From a virus: DNA of 64,000 nucleotides. The notes beneath the pieces are model-generated. The model made no database searches. It was given only the letters and a program-made list of their open reading frames with translations, and was not told the DNA's origin. The translations under genes were made by a program, and so were the position numbers. Shown here piece after piece: positions 5,646 to 29,963 of the stretch (position 1 is the first letter of the stretch; each line of letters begins with the position of its first letter). The stretch is taken from positions 1 through 64,000 of the IMG/VR virus record IMGVR_UViG_3300042261_002390; one strand, written 5' to 3'.

Positions 5646-6422
5646 ATGTACAACGAAGCTGATGATAAAAAAACACATAAATCTGGCATATACGTAATTA
5701 AAAATATAATTAACAATAAAATATATGTTGGTCAAACTATTAATATTATTGAAAATAGAATAAAAAGGCATCAATACGAATTGAAAAATAATAAACATGC
5801 TAATATTTATCTACAAAGAGAATTTAATAAGTTTGGTATACATTGTTTTGAATTTAATATATTATATTTCGGCATAATAACTATTGATGAATTAAATGAA
5901 ATTGAAATTAATCTAATTCAAAAATATAAATCGAATGATGAGAATTTTGGTTATAACATCTTACTTGGCGGTAAAAATCAAAAATTACCAGAAACTGTAA
6001 AAAATAAAATAAGCAAATCGTTGTTAAATAATAAATTTACATCAAAAAAAATTGTTCAATATGATATACAAACCGGAAATATTCTTAAAACATGGGATTC
6101 GTTTAATGAAATTAAACGTCAGCTTGGGTTCAATATAGGAAATATTGCCCAATGTTGTAAATTAAATCCGCAATATCCACATTCAAATAAATTTGGTTGG
6201 AGATATTTAGATGATTACGAAAAATCAAATAAAAATGATTTAATGTATGATTTAAATTCAAAAAAACATAAAAAAATTATTGCAATAAACTGTGATGAAA
6301 TAATAGAATTTAAATCAATAAAAGAGGCTGAAGTTTATTTTAATGTTCACAGAAAATTCATACATAGAGTATTATCAGGAAAAAGAAAAAAATATCATAA
6401 TTATGAATTTAAATATGTATAA
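5646..6422 (+). CDS. Free-standing GIY-YIG homing endonuclease
   Basis: The 258-residue protein starts with a GIY-YIG nuclease domain: SGIYVIKN near residues 13-20, KIYVGQT near 26-32, an Arg-bearing helix (ENRIKRHQ), and the conserved Glu region in NEIEINLIQKY. The C-terminal half has two NUMOD-type DNA-binding modules (IVQYDIQTGNILKTW with the following helix-turn-helix, and a second from KIIAINCDE). It has no GTATTTAT octamer and sits tightly between two head-associated genes (13 and 5 bases), as an inserted mobile gene would. Very AT-rich codon use fits a selfish element. Its target site is not visible. Confidence 0.88.
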   Translation: MYNEADDKKTHKSGIYVIKNIINNKIYVGQTINIIENRIKRHQYELKNNKHANIYLQREFNKFGIHCFEFNILYFGIITIDELNEIEINLIQKYKSNDENFGYNILLGGKNQKLPETVKNKISKSLLNNKFTSKKIVQYDIQTGNILKTWDSFNEIKRQLGFNIGNIAQCCKLNPQYPHSNKFGWRYLDDYEKSNKNDLMYDLNSKKHKKIIAINCDEIIEFKSIKEAEVYFNVHRKFIHRVLSGKRKKYHNYEFKYV

Positions 6423-16769: not shown

Positions 16770-19700
16770 TTATTGAATATTAATAGTATACATTGAATTA
16801 TATTTTGCTTTATCTGGATTTAATTCACTTGATGCACCTTGAACAATTTCCCCAATACTTTGAGATGAAAGCGGTGTATTATAATTAGTTTCATCCGAAC
16901 TACCACCCTGAAATCCCATACCAGCAGCAGGATTTAATACTCTAGGCATTGGGTATCTTAATATTTTTGTGCCAGAAAAACTAGTTTTCATACTATTCGC
17001 ATTAATTTCATGCTCGACTGAAACAATTAAATATGCTCCATTATATAGTGGTACATTATCTAATTGAAAGTATTGTGTTGGTTGAATCATTGCATTCCCA
17101 AGTCCACTAATAGTTGCTTTATATGCACGATTTTCATATAAATTATATAGATTTTGTCCTTTTGGAATTGGTGCATTTTTACCCTCATCCCCAGCCAACC
17201 TAGCTAATATTTGTATTGATTCGTTGGTTTCCGGGTATTCTTTGCTGTCAATTTTAATGCTACTAAACATCGACTGATTTTGTTGCCCAAATTTGACGTT
17301 AAATGCACGTACTTGTCTCCAAGGAAAATTACTACTATTTCGTTGGTATTGACTATCATATTCAGGATTTGGTACACTGTTTGAGCTAAATTCTTTAGCA
17401 TCAGTAGTCCCAATATTAAGAATTCCATCATTTTTAAATCCGTTATTAATATTGGTTGGGTAACTTGATGAACCACCAATGTACATGCACACAAATGCCG
17501 ATGTTTGCTCAACTTCACCAACAGGGTCTATTTTAAACGTGTCTGTCCAACTATTATCACTATATGTCATGAAATTTTGTAATGGAAAAAATTCAAACCC
17601 ATTCATTGATAATATTTGAGCTAAAACACTATAAACCGAAACATTTGTATCATTAAATAAATCAAGTAATATTTCCGGGTTAATAACAGTATCGCCAATA
17701 GGATTCATCGCTCTATCGACAAAAGCAAAAGAGTCAATTAATTCTTTATTTGGTTTATTGAATGGATATCCGTCGTTTGCACCTAATTTTCTTTCAGGCG
17801 AACACAGCCATTTATCATTAATATTTTTAAACGAATAATATGTTTGTGTTAATATATCCTCATCACCACTTAATTTTTTCGTTTCTTCATCTTCCTTAAT
17901 TTTTTTATTCTCTTTAGCAACCAATTCACTACCAATTCTCTCCATCAGACCTTTAAAATATCTATCATTAACGGCTTTTTTATTTGCATTCAAATTTACG
18001 TTAATTAATGAATCGTATTTTTCTTTTTTCGGCACATTTTTAAAAGTATTTTGACTAAAGATAACTATATTTGTTTTTGTCAATAATTGTCCTAAGATTG
18101 GTTTGAAAAAACTACCATGATTTTCAGGATTTTCTGTTTTAGGATTTAAATATGACTCATATGCAGTATATTTATTCATTTTTTTACTATTCACTAACGA
18201 TTTAACTTCATTATACATCAGTTTTAATTGTGCTCTCATCGTTAGGTAATAACTAGTTCTAAAAACCTCATATTTAGCAGCAAATGTTTCTTTATCTTTT
18301 TCAGACAATATTTTATCAATATCTTCGATATCAGCAAACATATATAAATTAACCAATCCATTGAATTTAGAGCCACCACCAGTACTATAAAATGCTTTTA
18401 ATTCATCAAGTAAGCCGTTATTTTTTGCATTAACCAATCCACCAATATAATATTGAAGATAGTTAGGTACTTCAACAACCGCAGGTGTTTGAAAAATTAC
18501 ATGATTTAAATTTTTTGGGTAAATATTAAAACAACTTAAAGTGTATCCAAAATTTGATAGTAAGATTATCGCACTTAAATCAGATTCAGTATTAATAACA
18601 TCATCAAATAAATCATCATCATATGCAGATAAAGTTTTTATCCACCTATCTACAACATTTGAAAACGATTTTAACCCATAATTTTCAGAAGGTGGATTTA
18701 AACCCAATTCAGCAAATCCAGCATTACCCTTATCCAATAACACCTCAATCGCAGCGTTTGCTGTTTTTTCATTATTGAATGATGCGACACTTGTTAAATA
18801 TCTAGTCTGCAATGAAATGCCTTCAAAATCGTCAATTTCTTCGTCATTAACAGCATTATTTTTAACGAAAGCATCTTTGATAAAAATAAGATTTTGCGTA
18901 GTGAATAAATATGATTCTTCCGGTAATCTGCCATTAAATAATTTTTTAAAAAAGCCTCGTTCTACAGTACTAACAAAAATATCAAGTGGTTTACTACCAT
19001 CAGCAGTTGGCTGTTGTAAATCTATTGCCTCATCAACAATATTTAACCCAACATAATTTGGGTTTGTCTTATCAACATATGCACCATTAATATTGTCGAT
19101 GCTTTCTACTCCAAACTCCGGAAATGCATAAACATCAGTTAAATTATTACTCAAATATTTATAAAAATTATCCGGATTTTTATTATTATTTGCAAATGTT
19201 TTTAAATTACTAGATAATCCAGTATTATTAATCGATAATATTAAATTCAATGCTTCTGATTTTGAATATAAATCAACATATGCGCCATTTGCTTCAGTTA
19301 CGTTATTATAGAAACCATCAGGCAATGAACTTTGAGTTAGCACGTAAAATCTGTCTAGCAATATTTTTAATATTTGGTTTATCCTACTATCTGCACTAAG
19401 ATTAACCGACCCGGTAGTTGAATCAATATTAGAATATGGCGATGCTGGATTATTTGTAGATAATGATGAATCAAATGGGGATATTGGTATCCACACATTA
19501 TTACCTTCAGCATCAGTTTCTTCTTTCATCATCGCATCTGCAGCTTTTTGTCTTTGCAAAGTAAACGTATCTATGAACTTAGTAACTAACTGCATTTCAG
19601 GGAATGGGTCTGAAGCAGGTAAACTTTTATTAATTAATATTGGTGATATTCTAACTTCTTGGTCATTATTCTGTTTGCTGATAATTAGTGGAAATGCATA

Positions 19701-21296
19701 TATGTTATCATTGAGATTATCATTACCACTATCTCTCATACCATAATTAGCAATAATTCTTTTAAAATCAGGCTTATTATGGTGGTCTTGTGCAGATATT
19801 GATGTTGCCCTTAAAATATTGAAGAATTTATCAACATCATTCAATATTATTTTAAAGATGTTATATATGGTGGGTCTCATACCCAAAGTTTGCTCAATTG
19901 AATTATTAATTTTCTCATTAATTGATTTAGCTACATCTTTTTTGCTTTTTTCAATATCAATTTTCGATTTATATAATTTAACATAAAAATCAGTAACATC
20001 AAGAACAGCATATTTTAGTTCAAGATTTGAGTTGTTTGAATTGGTAGATAAATCAAAATTATTGTAAATCACCGTTAATGAAATATCGCTATTAACAATA
20101 CTTCCCTTAGTACCGCTCATAGCACCACTTGTTAATAATTGTGTACGATATATATCCAATCTATTGTTAAGAATAGCTATATTGCTTGGGTTTGAAATAT
20201 ATCCAACATATAATCTTTTAGATGTAGTACTTGGAGTATCTGTAGCATTAAAATTCTTAATAACATCATCATATTCGTAAATTGTTTTTAGTGGGGTGAT
20301 AACATTATCACCAACTTTACTTGTTGCAGGAGGATTTGCAATAGAATAAGATAGCGATGCATCAATATATTGACCTACAACACCTGATATTAAATTTTCA
20401 TAACCAATAGGTTGTGATGAGGCACTTGTATCACTAATAAACACATATGGAATTGCATTTCCATCACTTTTTAATGCATCATAAAAATTAGCTAACGCTT
20501 CTGTTGCTGTTTTATTTGCTTGTAGCTCGTTATTTAATGCATCATATTTATCACTATCACTATTTGTTTTAAGCTGCTTATCGACAACGCTATATAAATT
20601 TCTCAATTTTAAAATCAAATCATTTGTATTTGCAGGAGGCTGCGAAGTGTCTGAATTTATAGATTGGGCATTATTATCCATTAATGGAAAATTAACGATA
20701 TATCTAAACAATACATCACTCAACGGTGCAAACGTAATCGCAACAAATTCACCATTAATAATAAAATTACCACTTTCTGAACTAAATTCAGTGGTATATT
20801 TTACCAAATGTAGTTTATAGCTTAATGTTCTACCATAATAACCCTTAATTTTTAATTCAAAAGTTGGTGGTGGAAAATCAAACAATATTCTATATGGTGA
20901 ATTTTCTTGGTTAAAGAATGATAAACCTCTCAAGTCAACAAATTGTATTGATACTTGAGGAATAAATGATGAATTAATAACTACTTTAATATTAGTAATA
21001 CCAAATGATTCAAATTGTGTTTCATTATTCATTGTACTACCATCATAATAATTTGTGGTAAAATTAAGATAATTTGGATTGTCAGGATTTTGATTGTTTC
21101 CTAAAAAATTTACAATTACATCAACATCAGTTTTTAAACCTTCACCAACCACGATAACACTTCTTCCTTTCCTAGAAGCAGTTAATTCAGCAAATATGTG
21201 CATATCCTGATATTGTGGAATTGCATTAGGTATTGCAGTATTAATGTTAACACTGTTTGGGTCATCTAAATATTTGATATTGTTTTGACTTGGCAT
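16770..21296 (-). CDS. Giant baseplate hub protein
   Basis: A 1508-residue protein, far longer than T4 gp27 (391 residues). The N-terminal 240 residues resemble a tail-tube-like hub domain (beta strands around LKIKGYYGRTLSYKLHLVKY). The segment near residues 1385-1440 (ISGLGNAMIQPTQYFQL then GAYLIVSVEHEI) is the beta-barrel pattern seen in hub proteins of the gp27/gpD class. The centre is helical, Asn/Lys-rich and unrecognised. I chose ATG 21296 because the longest ORF (from 21329) would include the GTATTTAT promoter at 21314-21321. It precedes the lytic transglycosylase by one base, a classic hub-lysozyme pairing. Confidence 0.75.
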   Translation of the reverse strand: MPSQNNIKYLDDPNSVNINTAIPNAIPQYQDMHIFAELTASRKGRSVIVVGEGLKTDVDVIVNFLGNNQNPDNPNYLNFTTNYYDGSTMNNETQFESFGITNIKVVINSSFIPQVSIQFVDLRGLSFFNQENSPYRILFDFPPPTFELKIKGYYGRTLSYKLHLVKYTTEFSSESGNFIINGEFVAITFAPLSDVLFRYIVNFPLMDNNAQSINSDTSQPPANTNDLILKLRNLYSVVDKQLKTNSDSDKYDALNNELQANKTATEALANFYDALKSDGNAIPYVFISDTSASSQPIGYENLISGVVGQYIDASLSYSIANPPATSKVGDNVITPLKTIYEYDDVIKNFNATDTPSTTSKRLYVGYISNPSNIAILNNRLDIYRTQLLTSGAMSGTKGSIVNSDISLTVIYNNFDLSTNSNNSNLELKYAVLDVTDFYVKLYKSKIDIEKSKKDVAKSINEKINNSIEQTLGMRPTIYNIFKIILNDVDKFFNILRATSISAQDHHNKPDFKRIIANYGMRDSGNDNLNDNIYAFPLIISKQNNDQEVRISPILINKSLPASDPFPEMQLVTKFIDTFTLQRQKAADAMMKEETDAEGNNVWIPISPFDSSLSTNNPASPYSNIDSTTGSVNLSADSRINQILKILLDRFYVLTQSSLPDGFYNNVTEANGAYVDLYSKSEALNLILSINNTGLSSNLKTFANNNKNPDNFYKYLSNNLTDVYAFPEFGVESIDNINGAYVDKTNPNYVGLNIVDEAIDLQQPTADGSKPLDIFVSTVERGFFKKLFNGRLPEESYLFTTQNLIFIKDAFVKNNAVNDEEIDDFEGISLQTRYLTSVASFNNEKTANAAIEVLLDKGNAGFAELGLNPPSENYGLKSFSNVVDRWIKTLSAYDDDLFDDVINTESDLSAIILLSNFGYTLSCFNIYPKNLNHVIFQTPAVVEVPNYLQYYIGGLVNAKNNGLLDELKAFYSTGGGSKFNGLVNLYMFADIEDIDKILSEKDKETFAAKYEVFRTSYYLTMRAQLKLMYNEVKSLVNSKKMNKYTAYESYLNPKTENPENHGSFFKPILGQLLTKTNIVIFSQNTFKNVPKKEKYDSLINVNLNANKKAVNDRYFKGLMERIGSELVAKENKKIKEDEETKKLSGDEDILTQTYYSFKNINDKWLCSPERKLGANDGYPFNKPNKELIDSFAFVDRAMNPIGDTVINPEILLDLFNDTNVSVYSVLAQILSMNGFEFFPLQNFMTYSDNSWTDTFKIDPVGEVEQTSAFVCMYIGGSSSYPTNINNGFKNDGILNIGTTDAKEFSSNSVPNPEYDSQYQRNSSNFPWRQVRAFNVKFGQQNQSMFSSIKIDSKEYPETNESIQILARLAGDEGKNAPIPKGQNLYNLYENRAYKATISGLGNAMIQPTQYFQLDNVPLYNGAYLIVSVEHEINANSMKTSFSGTKILRYPMPRVLNPAAGMGFQGGSSDETNYNTPLSSQSIGEIVQGASSELNPDKAKYNSMYTINIQ

Positions 21297-21313
21297 ATTA
21301 TTGGATTTTTTAT

Positions 21314-21321
21314 ATAAATAC
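21314..21321 (-). promoter_or_regulatory. GTATTTAT putative late promoter (hub operon)
   Basis: Reverse-strand octamer 17 bases upstream of ATG 21296. It decides the start of the hub gene. Confidence 0.65.
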
Positions 21322-21368
21322 GAACCCACAAAAATTACAAAATTATAATAATTATTGAAACTATTTAA

Positions 21369-24461: not shown

Positions 24462-26144
24462 ATGGGATTTTTAACAGAAAGTGCTGAAGTTGGTAATATC
24501 GGATTAAAACAACTTCGTGAGCAAAGAGAAATTACAACTAACCGTTGGGAAAAAATCGGTTTATTGGAAGGTTTGGAAGGTAATGTAAAAGAAAATTGTG
24601 CTCAATTATTTGAAAATCAATTGTCTTATATGATTAACGAATCTTCAGATTCGACCAATTCAGGTCAATTTGAAACCGTAGCGTTCCCGGTTATCCGAAG
24701 AGTATTTGCAAAATTACTTGCTAACGACATCGTGTCGGTTCAAGCATTGAATTTACCTATTGGTAAATTGTATTACATTAACCCAAAAGCTAGTGTTCGT
24801 GTACAAGATGGTACTCATACAAACGTAGCTGGTCTTGAGCATACTTCACCTGATGGTGCTTATGGTAATGCTGCAACAAAACCATCAACTTCAAGAACAC
24901 AGTTCGAAACTCGTTCATTATACGATGCATTCTATGCAAGTGAATATAATGAAGAAGGTACTTCATTGTTCGACCGTTCAAAAGGTGACATGACTGTTCA
25001 CACTGGTGCAACTTCTGCATCTACTTTCGTTATCGGTACTGATAAATTTATCACTGTACAAATTGGTGGTTTCTTGGTAGCAGATTCAGGTAAATTAGTA
25101 GGTCCTGCTGGTGTTCAGATGGATACTGAATCATTCCTTGCTTCTTTGAAAATTACTGCTGATGCTGACTTAGTAGCTCCTGCTGGATTTACTGACCAAA
25201 ACATTCCTGCTGGTTCTTCAATTCCTTTCAACGTAAAGGTACAGAAATACGGTCAGGCAATCGTTGACAAAGCTGGTATTATTACTTTAGTTGTTGACGT
25301 TCAGTATGCCGGAACTAATGGATATCAACCATTGAGTGCTACAACTACTCCTACATTCAACTACGAATATAGAAGTTATTCAGACCTTGAAGAAGATTCA
25401 AGAATGGCTGAAGTTACTTTCCAACTTGACCAAGTTACTGTTTCCGTAGAAACTCGTAAAATGCGTGCTATGTGGACACCTGAATTAGCTCAGGACGTTA
25501 GTGCATTCCATAACATTGATGCTGAAGCTGAATTAACTGCTTTATTGTCAGAACAAATGGCTGCTGAAATCGACCGTGAAATTCTTCGTGACCTTCGTAG
25601 AGGTGCTGCTTGGACTGCTCGTTGGGACTACAACGGATTGCGTCGTCAATCAAATACTTACTATGGAACACAAAAAGACTGGAATCAGACATTAATCACT
25701 AAGATTAACCAGATTTCTGCTCAAATCCATAAAGCTACTCTTCGTGGTGGTGCATCTTGGGTTGTTGTTTCTCCTGAAGTAAGTGCTGTATTCGATGACC
25801 TTGAATACTTCCACGTATCAAACGCTGCTCCTGAACAGGACAAATATAACATGGGTATCGAAAAAATCGGTACATTGAGTGGACGTTACATCGTTTACCG
25901 TGACCCATATTCACCTGCTAATACTATCCTTATTGGACACAAAGGTAATAGCATCTTAGAGACCGGTTACATATACGCTCCATACGTACCAATGCAGTTA
26001 ACTCCTGTAATGTACAACCCATTCGATTTCACTCCTATTCGTGGTATCATGACTCGTTATGCTAAGAAAATGGTATTGAACCGTTACTACGGACGTATCT
26101 ATTGCGATGGTCTTCAAACTTTTGGTATTGGTGATTTGCAATAA
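24462..26144 (+). CDS. Major capsid protein (T4 gp23-like)
   Basis: The 560-residue HK97-fold capsid subunit has typical gp23 landmarks: FPVIRRVFAKLLANDIVSVQ (near 75-95), the ETRKMRAMWTPELAQD block in the middle, and the C-terminal FTPIRGIMTRYAKKMV then NRYYGRI. The N-terminal arm ends in SYMINESS, where E60 is a good match for the T4 maturation cut after E65. Codon use shifts strongly toward C-ending codons (TTC, AAC, TAC, GAC), unlike the neighbouring genes, consistent with very high expression. It has no octamer of its own and lies 28 bases behind the scaffold gene. A terminator follows at 26164. Confidence 0.95.
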   Translation: MGFLTESAEVGNIGLKQLREQREITTNRWEKIGLLEGLEGNVKENCAQLFENQLSYMINESSDSTNSGQFETVAFPVIRRVFAKLLANDIVSVQALNLPIGKLYYINPKASVRVQDGTHTNVAGLEHTSPDGAYGNAATKPSTSRTQFETRSLYDAFYASEYNEEGTSLFDRSKGDMTVHTGATSASTFVIGTDKFITVQIGGFLVADSGKLVGPAGVQMDTESFLASLKITADADLVAPAGFTDQNIPAGSSIPFNVKVQKYGQAIVDKAGIITLVVDVQYAGTNGYQPLSATTTPTFNYEYRSYSDLEEDSRMAEVTFQLDQVTVSVETRKMRAMWTPELAQDVSAFHNIDAEAELTALLSEQMAAEIDREILRDLRRGAAWTARWDYNGLRRQSNTYYGTQKDWNQTLITKINQISAQIHKATLRGGASWVVVSPEVSAVFDDLEYFHVSNAAPEQDKYNMGIEKIGTLSGRYIVYRDPYSPANTILIGHKGNSILETGYIYAPYVPMQLTPVMYNPFDFTPIRGIMTRYAKKMVLNRYYGRIYCDGLQTFGIGDLQ

Positions 26145-26163: not shown

Positions 26164-26193
26164 AAAAAGGTTGCATATTATGCAACCTTTTTT
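26164..26193 (+). terminator. Intrinsic terminator after the capsid gene
   Basis: Stem AAAAAGGTTGCAT with ATGCAACCTTTTT, loop ATT, then a T run. It overlaps the -33/-7 region of the following host-type promoter. Confidence 0.9.
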
Positions 26194-26201
26194 TATCTTT
26201 G
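26171..26201 (+). promoter_or_regulatory. Host-type (Bacteroidota) promoter
   Basis: TATCTTTG at 26194-26201 matches the Bacteroidota -7 consensus TAnnTTTG, with TTG at 26171-26173, 20 bases upstream. It lies before the Mom-like/GIY-YIG gene. Confidence 0.5.
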
Positions 26202-26204
26202 TAC

Positions 26205-26222
26205 GTGTTTATGCATAAACAC
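26205..26222. promoter_or_regulatory. 18-bp perfect palindrome, candidate operator
   Basis: GTGTTTATGCATAAACAC is fully self-complementary and sits where transcription from TATCTTTG would start, eight bases before ATG 26231. A dimeric DNA-binding protein bound here would block transcription. Confidence 0.5.
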
Positions 26223-26230
26223 ATAGTTTT

Positions 26231-27688
26231 ATGGTTTCATATCAATATAAAATTAGAAAAGAAAAAGAATTGTCTGAAGTGCTTGATTTTGATATTAATC
26301 ATGTAAATCTACATAATACGACAATAAGAGAAATTAATAAAAAAACAGCAACAAAAATAATATTAGAGTATGAATATTTACATTCAATGCCTTTTGCTTG
26401 TAAATATTTTTTTGGGATATATTTTAATATTAATAATTGTGAATATTTGGGAGGTGTTTTAGTTTTTGGCAATGAATATTCTGAAAATACTGGTGCTTGG
26501 CAAAAATATGGATACGAAGATAAGATTCTGCTATTAAGTCGTGGGGTTTGTTTATGGTGGACACCAAAAAATACAGCATCATATTTTATTAGCAGGGTTT
26601 GTGATATACTAAAAAAAACCACCAACTATAAAATAATTACAGCTACTGTAGACCCTGCTGCTGGTGAGATTGGGACAATTTATCAATCATTAAATTGGTA
26701 TTATGTTGGCTTAATGAGTGGCAATTATCATGGTAATAAAATGGCAACTCGATTCGGAGTTATAATCAATGGTAAATTACGATTGTCACGGTGGATACGT
26801 AATAAAATAGGTAGTATGCGCCGTGAAGAAATTTTAAAGCATTATCCGGATGCTATATTTGTACCACAATACAGAAAACAAAGATATTTTTATTTCATCG
26901 GTAATAAAACAGAAAATAGAAAACTTATTAATAGTATTAAGCATCTATTATTACCATATCCCAAAAGAAATAATCAGATTTCAGGAATAATTTATTTAAT
27001 AAAAAATGAAATTAACAATAAAATATATGTAGGGCAAACAATTCGTTCATTACGTGATAGAATTCGTGAATATGAAAAAGGATTTGGCAATGTATATTTA
27101 AACAATGCATTTAAAAAATATGGTTGGAGTAATTTTAAATTTGAAGTAATTGATACTGCAGAGAATTTGGAAGAATTAAATGAAAAGGAAATCTCTTACA
27201 TTAAAAAATATAATTCAAACAATAAAGAATTTGGGTATAATATTGAATCCGGTGGAAAAAATGCAATTCCTGATACTGAGACGTTAGAGAAAATGTCTAA
27301 ATCACATTTAGGCATTGTTCAATCTGAAGAATGGATTAACAGAAGAATAGCTAAAGCAGGTACTGATGAAGCAAAAAAATACGGTAAAACAAAAACAGAG
27401 GATGAAAAAACACAATTAAGTATTAATTCTCCAAAATATTGGAAAGGTAAATCTCGTGATACTAAGACTAAAGAAAAAATCAGTAAAACAAAACTTGAGA
27501 ATGGATTGTCTGAAAAACAAAAAGAAGTATTATTAAAAAAAGTATATAAAGTAGATATTATCAACAATACTACAATAGAATATGAGTCAACATTATCTGC
27601 ATCAATAGCAGAAAACGTAAATCAATCTACAATATCAAGACGATGTTCGAAAAATAAAATAATAAAAAACATATTGTGGAAATATTAA
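26231..27688 (+). CDS. Mom-like acyltransferase domain fused to GIY-YIG endonuclease
   Basis: The 485-residue protein has two apparently independent parts. Residues about 40-180 resemble phage Mu Mom-type DNA-modification proteins (GNAT-like): EYLHSMP, FGIYFN, LGGVLVFGN, LLSRGVCLWW, NTASYFISR, VDPAAGEIGTIYQ, NWYYVGL. Residues 250-345 are a GIY-YIG nuclease: SGIIYLI (251-257), KIYVGQT (264-270), an Arg-rich helix, and the catalytic Glu region LNEKEISYIKKY. A NUMOD/helix-turn-helix module ends the protein (VYKVDIINN, ASIAENVNQSTISRRC). It follows the capsid gene, a common homing-endonuclease location. The Mom assignment rests on motif pattern and needs a profile search. Confidence 0.75.
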   Translation: MVSYQYKIRKEKELSEVLDFDINHVNLHNTTIREINKKTATKIILEYEYLHSMPFACKYFFGIYFNINNCEYLGGVLVFGNEYSENTGAWQKYGYEDKILLLSRGVCLWWTPKNTASYFISRVCDILKKTTNYKIITATVDPAAGEIGTIYQSLNWYYVGLMSGNYHGNKMATRFGVIINGKLRLSRWIRNKIGSMRREEILKHYPDAIFVPQYRKQRYFYFIGNKTENRKLINSIKHLLLPYPKRNNQISGIIYLIKNEINNKIYVGQTIRSLRDRIREYEKGFGNVYLNNAFKKYGWSNFKFEVIDTAENLEELNEKEISYIKKYNSNNKEFGYNIESGGKNAIPDTETLEKMSKSHLGIVQSEEWINRRIAKAGTDEAKKYGKTKTEDEKTQLSINSPKYWKGKSRDTKTKEKISKTKLENGLSEKQKEVLLKKVYKVDIINNTTIEYESTLSASIAENVNQSTISRRCSKNKIIKNILWKY

Positions 27689-27715
27689 AGGGTCGGTAAT
27701 TCCGACCCTTTTTTA
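27687..27715. terminator. Bidirectional intrinsic terminator
   Basis: AAAGGGTCGG pairs with CCGACCCTTT between the convergent genes ending at 27688 and 27713, with A and T runs on the two sides. Confidence 0.85.
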
Positions 27716-27997
27716 TTCTTCTAATTCAACCTTCTGAATATAATTAAAACCTTCAGATAAATTATCATACACTTCTCGCCTGATTTTTAATTTATCGTGT
27801 ATCGTAGATATTGTCGTTCTTATTACATTTAAATCAATGTCAGATGTAGTAACACTAATCTCTTCAGTAGAAAAATCAATCCAGCCATGTGATTTAGTTC
27901 TATATTTACCAGTAAACACCAAACTATCTTTCAATGGATGATACACAACTTCAATTTTTTCACGCTCATTTTTTTCAACAACAATTGTCCATTTCAT
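27713..27997 (-). CDS. Hypothetical protein, last gene of helicase operon
   Basis: A 94-residue protein, beta-rich in the first 60 residues (WTIVVEKNE, IEVVYHPLKDSLVF) and helical after. I do not recognise it. It lies 23 bases downstream of the helicase gene on the same strand. Its start is preceded by TAGGAGAAAATTAATATG, one of very few Shine-Dalgarno-like sequences in this window, so the start is well supported even though such sites are not normally used in Bacteroidota. Confidence 0.7.
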   Translation of the reverse strand: MKWTIVVEKNEREKIEVVYHPLKDSLVFTGKYRTKSHGWIDFSTEEISVTTSDIDLNVIRTTISTIHDKLKIRREVYDNLSEGFNYIQKVELEE

Positions 27998-28020: not shown

Positions 28021-29496
28021 TTATTCATCCTTCCAATTATTATCGTAAATTAATTCTAAACGTGCTCTTGTGATAGCTACATATTCGAGATTTTTTTCTT
28101 GAATATACTGCCAACTTCTTGTATTTGGCAATGGCAATAAATCCGGTCTAACAATAAAGACACGATTAGCTTCCAATCCCTTAACCTTATGAACAGTTGC
28201 TAAACAAATGCCCTCAATTTTATCACTAAAAATCGCTTTAATTTTAATTTTTAGGTCTTCAACACTAGTAGCAAATTGTGCTAAAAACAACAAAGTAGTT
28301 ACCTTATCTTCCAATGCGGAATATCCACTATGTTCCACCGGGTTTAAGATACCTGTTGATTTTAAATCTTTCTTAAACCTAGATAATTCATCTTCCCAAA
28401 ATGTTTTTAATTTTTCAAGACTATTGATTTTACCAATCAATTCAATTAAATGTATACCTATATCGCTACCTTTAATAATTGCCTTTTTGTGTTGTGTTAA
28501 AAACTCAAAAAATAATTTAACTAAAGGCATTGTTGTTCTACAAAGTACAAAATCACCACCCTGTGCTTCGGTCAAGACGTTTCCTTCACGAACTATGCCA
28601 TCAGGAGCGTCATCAAGTGCCTTAATATCGGGAACAATTTCTTGTGCCTTTTTTATTACGTTTTTTGAACACCTAAATGAGGTTGATAATGGTAATATTT
28701 TAGTATTTGGGAATTTCTCAAACCATTCAAAAGATTTTTCATCAGCAGCATTAAAACCATAAATTCCTTGAAATGAATCTCCAACTGCAATTAACCTACC
28801 AATAGTTTTACCACTTGTTTTATCTTTTTTCAACAATTTTTCAATAATCTTAATTTGACAACGATTTAAGTCCTGAACTTCATCAACAAAAACATAATCT
28901 TGTGGAAACATCCAAATACTGTTATCGACTGCAGGTAAAAAAATCATATCAGTGAAATCATACAAATTTCTATCATTTGTTGCTTCATCTAATACTTTAA
29001 GTACTCGCTTAAAATCGTTTGGTTTTCTTAAGTTTACTTCATAGCGGTCAGCAATATATGGAACATATTCAGGCTTTAATGTTAATGTTAAACGGCATAA
29101 ATTAACTACTTTCTTTATTGAATTTAAGTAAATTGATATTTCTTCATCACTATCAAATTCCTCGTCTAATTTCCAAGATTTTGCCTTCTTTTGAATGATT
29201 TTATCAATTTTAAACTCATCAAAAACTATCTTATCACCATATTTACGTTTAATTGCTGAATTGCCTAACCCATATGTCGTATAACACCTAACGTGTTCCG
29301 GGAGTTTTGTTGATAATTCTTCTTGAATATGCTTGTTGAAAGCTAAAAACATTATTGATTTGTCTTTAGGTAATAATTTTACTGCTTCAACAATAGTAAA
29401 TGTCTTTCCACAACCCGCAAAAGCCTTAATTAATATGTTCTCGGGTCTTTTTTTCGTGAATAATAGTATTCTTTCTTGTTCTGATGTTAGTTTCAT
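28021..29496 (-). CDS. UvrD/Dda-type SF1 DNA helicase
   Basis: The 491-residue superfamily 1A helicase shows, in order: the Q-motif (MKLTSEQERILLF), Walker A AFAGCGKT (25-32), a motif with CYTTYG, Walker B FVDEVQDL, motif III region GDSFQGIYGFNAAD, motif IV TSFRCS, motif V ATVHKVKGLEA, and motif VI EYVAITRARLELIY. It probably acts in phage replication or recombination as T4 Dda or UvsW-associated helicases do. The ATG at 29496 overlaps the previous stop (ATGA), and I prefer it to the longer reading from 29511. Confidence 0.92.
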   Translation of the reverse strand: MKLTSEQERILLFTKKRPENILIKAFAGCGKTFTIVEAVKLLPKDKSIMFLAFNKHIQEELSTKLPEHVRCYTTYGLGNSAIKRKYGDKIVFDEFKIDKIIQKKAKSWKLDEEFDSDEEISIYLNSIKKVVNLCRLTLTLKPEYVPYIADRYEVNLRKPNDFKRVLKVLDEATNDRNLYDFTDMIFLPAVDNSIWMFPQDYVFVDEVQDLNRCQIKIIEKLLKKDKTSGKTIGRLIAVGDSFQGIYGFNAADEKSFEWFEKFPNTKILPLSTSFRCSKNVIKKAQEIVPDIKALDDAPDGIVREGNVLTEAQGGDFVLCRTTMPLVKLFFEFLTQHKKAIIKGSDIGIHLIELIGKINSLEKLKTFWEDELSRFKKDLKSTGILNPVEHSGYSALEDKVTTLLFLAQFATSVEDLKIKIKAIFSDKIEGICLATVHKVKGLEANRVFIVRPDLLPLPNTRSWQYIQEKNLEYVAITRARLELIYDNNWKDE

Positions 29497-29963
29497 TTCA
29501 CAATAGTCCAATTATCATTAGTAATTCCGTCTTTTAACTCAAACAACTGTAATCCAGTTAATTCAGATAATACAAATACTTTTAGACCTTCTTGTCTTTG
29601 ATAAATTTTATCACCATAAACGATAAATTCGGGTAACGCATCTCGTTCTTCAATAGTATCAACACATATATGGTATCGTTTATCCATCATCATATCCATA
29701 TCACCAGCAGCTTTCATATTATTAAATAAAATTTCAGCCATTTCATCGCTCACCTGTCCTAATAATGATACTGAATTTTCAATAATTTCTGCAGCATTTG
29801 AGTCTAGTTGAGCTTTTCTTCGAAAATAAGTGCCTTCCAATAAATATCTAGCAAGTTCAAACACAAAGAATTTATCCTCCGGTTTATTGTCATAATCATC
29901 AGATAATGAGACGTATGGTCTACCTGATTCATTTAATTTTATTTCATATTCAATTTTATGCAT
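29493..29963 (-). CDS. Hypothetical protein, first gene of helicase operon
   Basis: A 156-residue acidic protein that I do not recognise. It has a strand-rich start (HKIEYEIKLNESGRPYVSLSDD), a helical centre with a Met-rich stretch (GDMDMMMDKRY), and a C-terminal YGDKIYQRQEGLKVFVLSELTG segment similar in rhythm to small beta-barrel domains. It overlaps the helicase start by four bases, so the two products are probably made together. Transcription likely begins at the host-type promoter at 29998-30029. Confidence 0.7.
   Translation of the reverse strand: MHKIEYEIKLNESGRPYVSLSDDYDNKPEDKFFVFELARYLLEGTYFRRKAQLDSNAAEIIENSVSLLGQVSDEMAEILFNNMKAAGDMDMMMDKRYHICVDTIEERDALPEFIVYGDKIYQRQEGLKVFVLSELTGLQLFELKDGITNDNWTIVK

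Follow-up and report, generated by a model that had tools for sequence, protein, structure and literature searches.

A probable homing cassette behind a phage major capsid gene encodes a Mom-type domain joined to a GIY-YIG endonuclease

Homing endonucleases are usually regarded as pure parasites of phage genomes. The gene described here, from a giant phage, joins a Mom domain and a GIY-YIG homing endonuclease in a single ORF (26231-27688, plus strand; 485 codons without internal stop, 485 aa). It is located in a window of 64,000 nt, which is the whole stretch of DNA that was analysed and represents positions 1 to 64,000 of a 246 kb virus contig (IMG/VR record IMGVR_UViG_3300042261_002390); the complete contig has one Mom match and eight GIY-YIG matches.

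For jumbo phages, Mom domains joined to REase-fold nucleases have been described, and a role resembling restriction-modification (R-M) was proposed for them (Iyer et al. 2021, PMC7824862). These fusions likewise combine a Mom-family GNAT with an endonuclease in large phages. However, the nuclease is of the GIY-YIG type in the window and HNH/EndoVII-like in a sister group, there is no REase fold, the Mom domain is canonical, and the gene resides in a homing hotspot. The initial annotation had considered the combination to be new. This has to be narrowed, as fusions of Mom to REase-type nucleases were already known from jumbo phages (PMC7824862), while the pairing with GIY-YIG was not found in the open-access papers searched. 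We found there neither a canonical Mom fused to GIY-YIG or HNH/EndoVII-like nucleases nor a report of Mom/nuclease exchange at one hotspot or of a Mom-like fold for the domain associated with Hef.

Mom from phage Mu (PDB 8bv8; PF25680) shows full-length homology, adopts the same fold, has the same 'PYPK' end, and its S124 corresponds to S117 of the fusion protein. It differs in the absence of an attached nuclease and in two residues, with H58 and R154 of Mu Mom being replaced by E48 and E146. As the two glutamates are also found in close standalone Moms of the same subfamily, we rejected the reading that the fusion had cost the Mom domain its active site.

With respect to the nuclease and its position, the Seg family of phage T4 is similar. 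The free-standing GIY-YIG gene segD is located between capsid genes 23 and 24 (PMC2988022) and, as for the cassette in the window, Seg enzymes have a GIY-YIG catalytic domain, are encoded intergenically beside the major capsid gene, and are variably present; unlike for the fusion, a Mom domain has not been described for them. Hef-type enzymes (U5 hef, Bacillus AR9, Campylobacter Hef73; PHROG 3339/559; U5 grouped by class) combine a homing nuclease with a domain that is predicted to be a Mom-like GNAT, and fill the same post-capsid slot in relatives. One nuclease of this type, Hef from phage U5, cleaves nrdB and is known as a homing enzyme (PMC2988022). In contrast to the fusion, the GNAT-like domain of the Hef-type enzymes is C-terminal, follows a weakly REase-like part and does not have the Mom serine motif. 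Finally, the EndoVII-type homing endonuclease F-CphI (PMC6083498) is similar in nuclease class to the N-terminal part of the HNH-Mom proteins from the sister group (L149-L164), but is devoid of a Mom domain and is engaged in psbA-linked collaborative homing.

Domain architecture and conservation of the fusion protein

The Mom domain (residues 1-245; 26231..26965, plus strand) extends intact up to 'PYPK', the natural end of Mom, according to the residue alignment, to a search with Mu Mom 8bv8 (hmmsearch E 4e-18) and to the full-length match of PF25680 (residues 30-245, profile positions 2-202 of 202; E 1.7e-24; 87.1 bits with a curated cutoff of 27.1 bits). After a spacing of about 6 residues it is followed by the GIY-YIG catalytic domain (residues 252-331; 26984..27223, plus strand), which is matched by PF01541 (E 3.3e-9). 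The remaining residues 332-485 (27224..27685, plus strand) represent the NUMOD/HTH-like C-terminal DNA-binding tail of a homing endonuclease, which is indicated by TIGR01453 (NCBIfam, group I intron endonuclease; E 4.8e-24) and PHROG 314 (homing endonuclease; E 2.7e-33), both of which extend to the C-terminus. Together with PHROG 1384 ('Mom-like'; E 2.7e-27), the PHROG assignments agree with Pfam. An AF2 model, built on a 32-sequence alignment (mean pLDDT 77.8), has helices at 454-461 and 465-473 in the tail; the individual domains are modelled, while their mutual placement is not fixed given the pTM of 0.48. Foldseek of this single-chain model retrieved Mu Mom 8bv8 (3e-10) and the catalytic domain of I-TevI (1mk0; 1.3e-4).

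Pfam, PHROG, TIGR01453 and Foldseek thus bear out the initial annotation in its view that Mom-like and GIY-YIG parts are combined in one protein. The N-terminal half, which might have belonged to another family, does belong to Mom (PF25680, 8bv8), with a length of about 245 rather than 180 residues. The proposed NUMOD tail is retained in modified form: Pfam NUMOD profiles do not match the fusion protein, but the coverage by TIGR01453 and PHROG 314 reaches the C-terminus, and among the homologues NUMOD1 is scored in L019 and NUMOD3, below threshold, in L008.

Residues of Mu Mom are conserved beyond the serine. R104 and D141 correspond to R111 and D149, and the equivalents of Y159, Q160 and N163 are present as Y151, Q152 and N155. 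The serine is the residue exchanged in the inactive Mu Mom crystal (S124A, PDB 8bv8). It is invariant in all 16 GIY fusions, all 5 HNH fusions and all 19 standalone Moms, and more than 40 further positions are invariant in true Mom fusions. Judged by this one residue and by overall conservation, the Mom half is probably catalytically competent. In the nuclease half, the catalytic residues Y255, Y266, R277 and E320 are present, as is N337 just C-terminal of the domain; this set (Y, Y, R, E, N) is intact in 15 of the 16 aligned Mom-GIY proteins. Pairwise dN/dS values (NG86) are 0.11-0.19 for the Mom half and 0.13-0.36 for the nuclease half, at dS of about 0.7-1.4. Both halves of the fusion are under purifying selection.

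Searches with the Mom domain revealed a C-terminal GIY-YIG fusion in 20 other viral contigs (L129-L148), a set in which two of the nucleases are shortened and lack the motifs, one fusion is truncated by the contig end, and a few pairs are near-identical. The concern that the two halves had been joined by an assembly error is thereby dispelled. The homologous fusions adjoin the capsid gene in nearly all cases. A further Mom-GIY-YIG fusion, adjoining matches to GN2 (see below) and GIY-YIG, was found in a Bacteroidales MAG contig (L209). Named phage records do not include any that covers 80% of the window fusion, of the HNH-Mom protein or of the GN2-GIY protein, the plasmids searched gave only one weak match from Streptomyces, and the fusion does not match any PADLOC defence model. 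Two Acidobacteria MAG proteins of 643-663 aa (L211, L212) also carry a Mom domain; by eye, their C-terminal part seems ParB-like and DNA methyltransferase-like.

Close standalone Moms terminate at 'PYPKR' plus 0-15 residues and Mu Mom terminates at 'PYPK' (K241), so that the nuclease is attached behind an intact Mom. In the large contigs of the clade, a full-length canonical Mom occurs solely at the nuclease-linked locus. Five fusion-less relatives (G002, 322 kb; G004, 365 kb; G005, 334 kb; G007, 299 kb; G009, 340 kb) have no Mom match, which is suggestive only as the completeness of these contigs is not stated; standalone Moms are present in a more distant relative (G020).

Turnover of the slot behind the capsid gene

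The major capsid gene (24462..26144, plus strand; PHROG 138 major head protein, E 9.6e-66), which is syntenic in the related loci examined, anchors an insertion hotspot. Immediately behind it, the fusion gene forms a free-standing, probable homing cassette. At its left boundary, the cassette is delimited by the intrinsic terminator of the capsid gene (26164..26192, plus strand), a 13-pair stem with a T run; a hairpin and T run 3' of the capsid gene also occur in empty alleles. At its right boundary, an intrinsic terminator of the cassette (27687..27711, plus strand) precedes a small convergent gene (27713-27997, minus strand). Since two terminators bracket the ORF and Rfam has no match in the window, we rejected the possibility that the ORF is encoded by a group I intron. 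Overlapping with the capsid terminator is a promoter-like site, TTG-N20-TATCTTTG (26171..26201, plus strand), a putative promoter which we take to fit the Bacteroidota consensus. A -7 box TAnnTTTG is found at the same position in eight occupied slots (L049, L078, L062, L073, L051, L056, L092, L014) and was not found in three empty alleles (L054, L088, L097). The leader of the fusion gene contains an 18-bp perfect palindrome, GTGTTTATGCATAAACAC (26205..26222), which is partly conserved in L049 and could be an operator or a hairpin. A Bacteroidota host is likely, considering the promoter fit, the Bacteroidales MAG contig with the fusion, and the Flavobacterium phages which have the closest named capsids, though at just 34% identity.

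We surveyed 80 capsid loci. In the three empty alleles only about 70 bp separate the capsid gene from the next gene. In other relatives the slot is filled by a lone GIY-YIG (L052, L096), by Mom-GIY-YIG, or by GN2 plus the same GIY-YIG (52-68% identical). One contig (L003/L078) has a tandem pair of Mom-GIY cassettes. Close relatives thus differ in whether this fixed site is occupied, a trait of homing endonucleases, and its content turns over rapidly on the capsid tree. Cassette type requires 21 changes (shuffled mean 23.4). For the Mom label, which 11 rows carry, 10 changes are needed, compared with 10.1 on average after shuffling. Neither shows significant phylogenetic clustering on this tree. 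On the nuclease tree, a single clade of Mom-linked GIY-YIG is rejected (AU p 0.00012) while monophyly of GN2-linked GIY-YIG is not (p 0.087). On the Mom tree, a quick search with SH-aLRT only, nuclease-linked Moms separate from standalone Moms (support 96). A scan of the capsid flanks for co-conversion, in 14 intervals, yielded a few nominal p values and no clear signal.

The alternative partner, GN2, is a domain of ~250 residues that is also found at the C-terminus of the homing endonucleases in PHROG 3339/559, annotated as Hef or Hef-like (Campylobacter, Bacillus AR9 phages). Its predicted fold is that of a Mom-like GNAT: the AF2 model (pLDDT 92) has Mu Mom 8bv8 as best PDB match (Foldseek 1.3e-7), hhalign relates GN2 to Mom (E 5.5e-6, probability 86%), and several genomic copies score above the Pfam Mom cutoff (36, 34, 33 and 30 bits), with A3 hits coinciding in position. 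The alignment position of the Mom serine is variable in GN2 (S/T/V/N/A), which may therefore bind rather than modify. GN2 is multicopy in single phage contigs of 325-340 kb, with six matches in the record of L084 (G006) and seven in that of L099 (G009).

In the sister phage group (capsid 52-55% identical), the gene 3' of the capsid gene codes for a protein of 460-475 aa (L149-L155, L158-L164), in which an N-terminal HTH and an HNH/EndoVII-like part precede a complete Mom ending with PYPKR. The nuclease part matches PHROG 1035 (endonuclease VII; E 8.5e-12 to 4e-14), while Pfam HNH reaches just E 0.049, which is under the cutoff. L165, with only a nuclease remnant, looks like a decayed copy of this type. 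Nuclease types are thus exchanged in the slot while the partners stay Mom-like, which points to selfish elements that bring a DNA-modification domain of their own, a class that has received little notice.

Proposed function and alternative explanations

With moderate confidence, we propose that the gene is a mobile homing cassette which both homes and modifies phage DNA, its nuclease being covalently joined to a complete, probably competent GNAT acyltransferase of the Mom type. That the protein cuts, homes and modifies adenines, and that the two activities are coupled in any way, is inferred. When a carrier and a cassette-free relative infect the same cell, the GIY-YIG half would cleave the relative's DNA close to the capsid gene, and the ensuing repair would place a copy of the cassette in the slot behind this gene (intronless homing). 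Adenines of phage DNA would be the substrate of the Mom half, and their modification would protect the carrier genome from host restriction and possibly also the target from the cassette's own nuclease. In this way the element would be of benefit or, at the least, tolerated. A mobile element that pays its way with its own modifier, as already suggested in the initial annotation, fits the behaviour of the hotspot, the intact catalytic residues, and the restriction of canonical Mom to the fusion in the large contigs of the clade.

It is unlikely that the Mom-fold domain has lost modification and is a mere DNA-binding module that chooses the target of the nuclease. In the same slot, the same nuclease lineage carries GN2 at its N-terminus instead, a domain predicted to be Mom-like in fold, yet with a variable serine column, and this would be in line with a targeting role. 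However, the invariance of the serine and of more than 40 other positions in true Mom fusions argues against such a role, as does the retention of Mom upon nuclease decay (L017/L018, where R, E and N have been lost, and the remnant L165), and lone GIY-YIG copies occur without Mom. That Mom outlives the nuclease motifs in L017/L018 would, on the other hand, be expected for passive hitchhiking, in which a homing gene arrived at the 3' end of an otherwise normal mom gene and the stop codon between them was lost, without any cooperation between the two parts. The joint, located exactly where same-subfamily standalone Moms and Mu Mom end, agrees with this reading as well. We still consider it rather unlikely: Mom-linked GIY-YIGs belong to more than one lineage and a second nuclease class is attached N-terminally to Moms of the same clade, so that a chance fusion must have recurred; moreover, the fusion-less large relatives show no separate mom gene.

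An R-M-like weapon, which would use Mom to mark phage DNA and the nuclease to destroy unmarked DNA of the host or of rivals, seems quite improbable. GIY-YIG enzymes with such a tail are usually highly site-specific, gain and loss at the slot resemble a homing site, the same nuclease exists without any modifier (L052, L096), and PADLOC models give no match. Nevertheless, this function has been predicted in print for Mom-nuclease fusions of jumbo phages (Iyer et al. 2021, PMC7824862), and Mom is joined here to two further nuclease classes.

Returning to a cassette that homes and modifies, a wider generalization is possible and put forward tentatively. Mom-fold GNATs might be a general functional partner that phage homing nucleases (GIY-YIG, HNH/EndoVII-like, Hef/REase-like) have acquired repeatedly, attached at either terminus and including the so far unnamed C-terminal domain of Hef. 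In such modifying homing elements, modification would steer the cuts or pay for the element. A lineage that retains a DNA-modification enzyme and swaps its nuclease would give a parasite a concrete route to usefulness or self-protection, and would bridge homing and restriction-modification. The question why homing endonuclease genes persist becomes testable on one protein, and a predicted fold and family can now be assigned to the conserved non-nuclease domain of the widespread Hef-type homing endonucleases.

Insertions elsewhere in the window and its relatives

Next to the locus, a UvrD/GajB-like helicase is encoded (28021-29511, minus strand). Its gene is cut into two or three parts by inserts of ~1 kb in L013, L016/L051, L069, L073, L080 and L092, resembling intron or homing-gene insertions. 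In L014 (851-2698), an insert of about 1.2 kb splits the gene for the head maturation protease. A protein of 1519 aa, whose gene is flanked by structural genes of the window (16770-21329, minus strand), has no PHROG match at E 0.001. At 5646-6422, the window encodes a further homing endonuclease of the GIY-YIG type, which has NUMOD1 and I-HmuI-like motifs.
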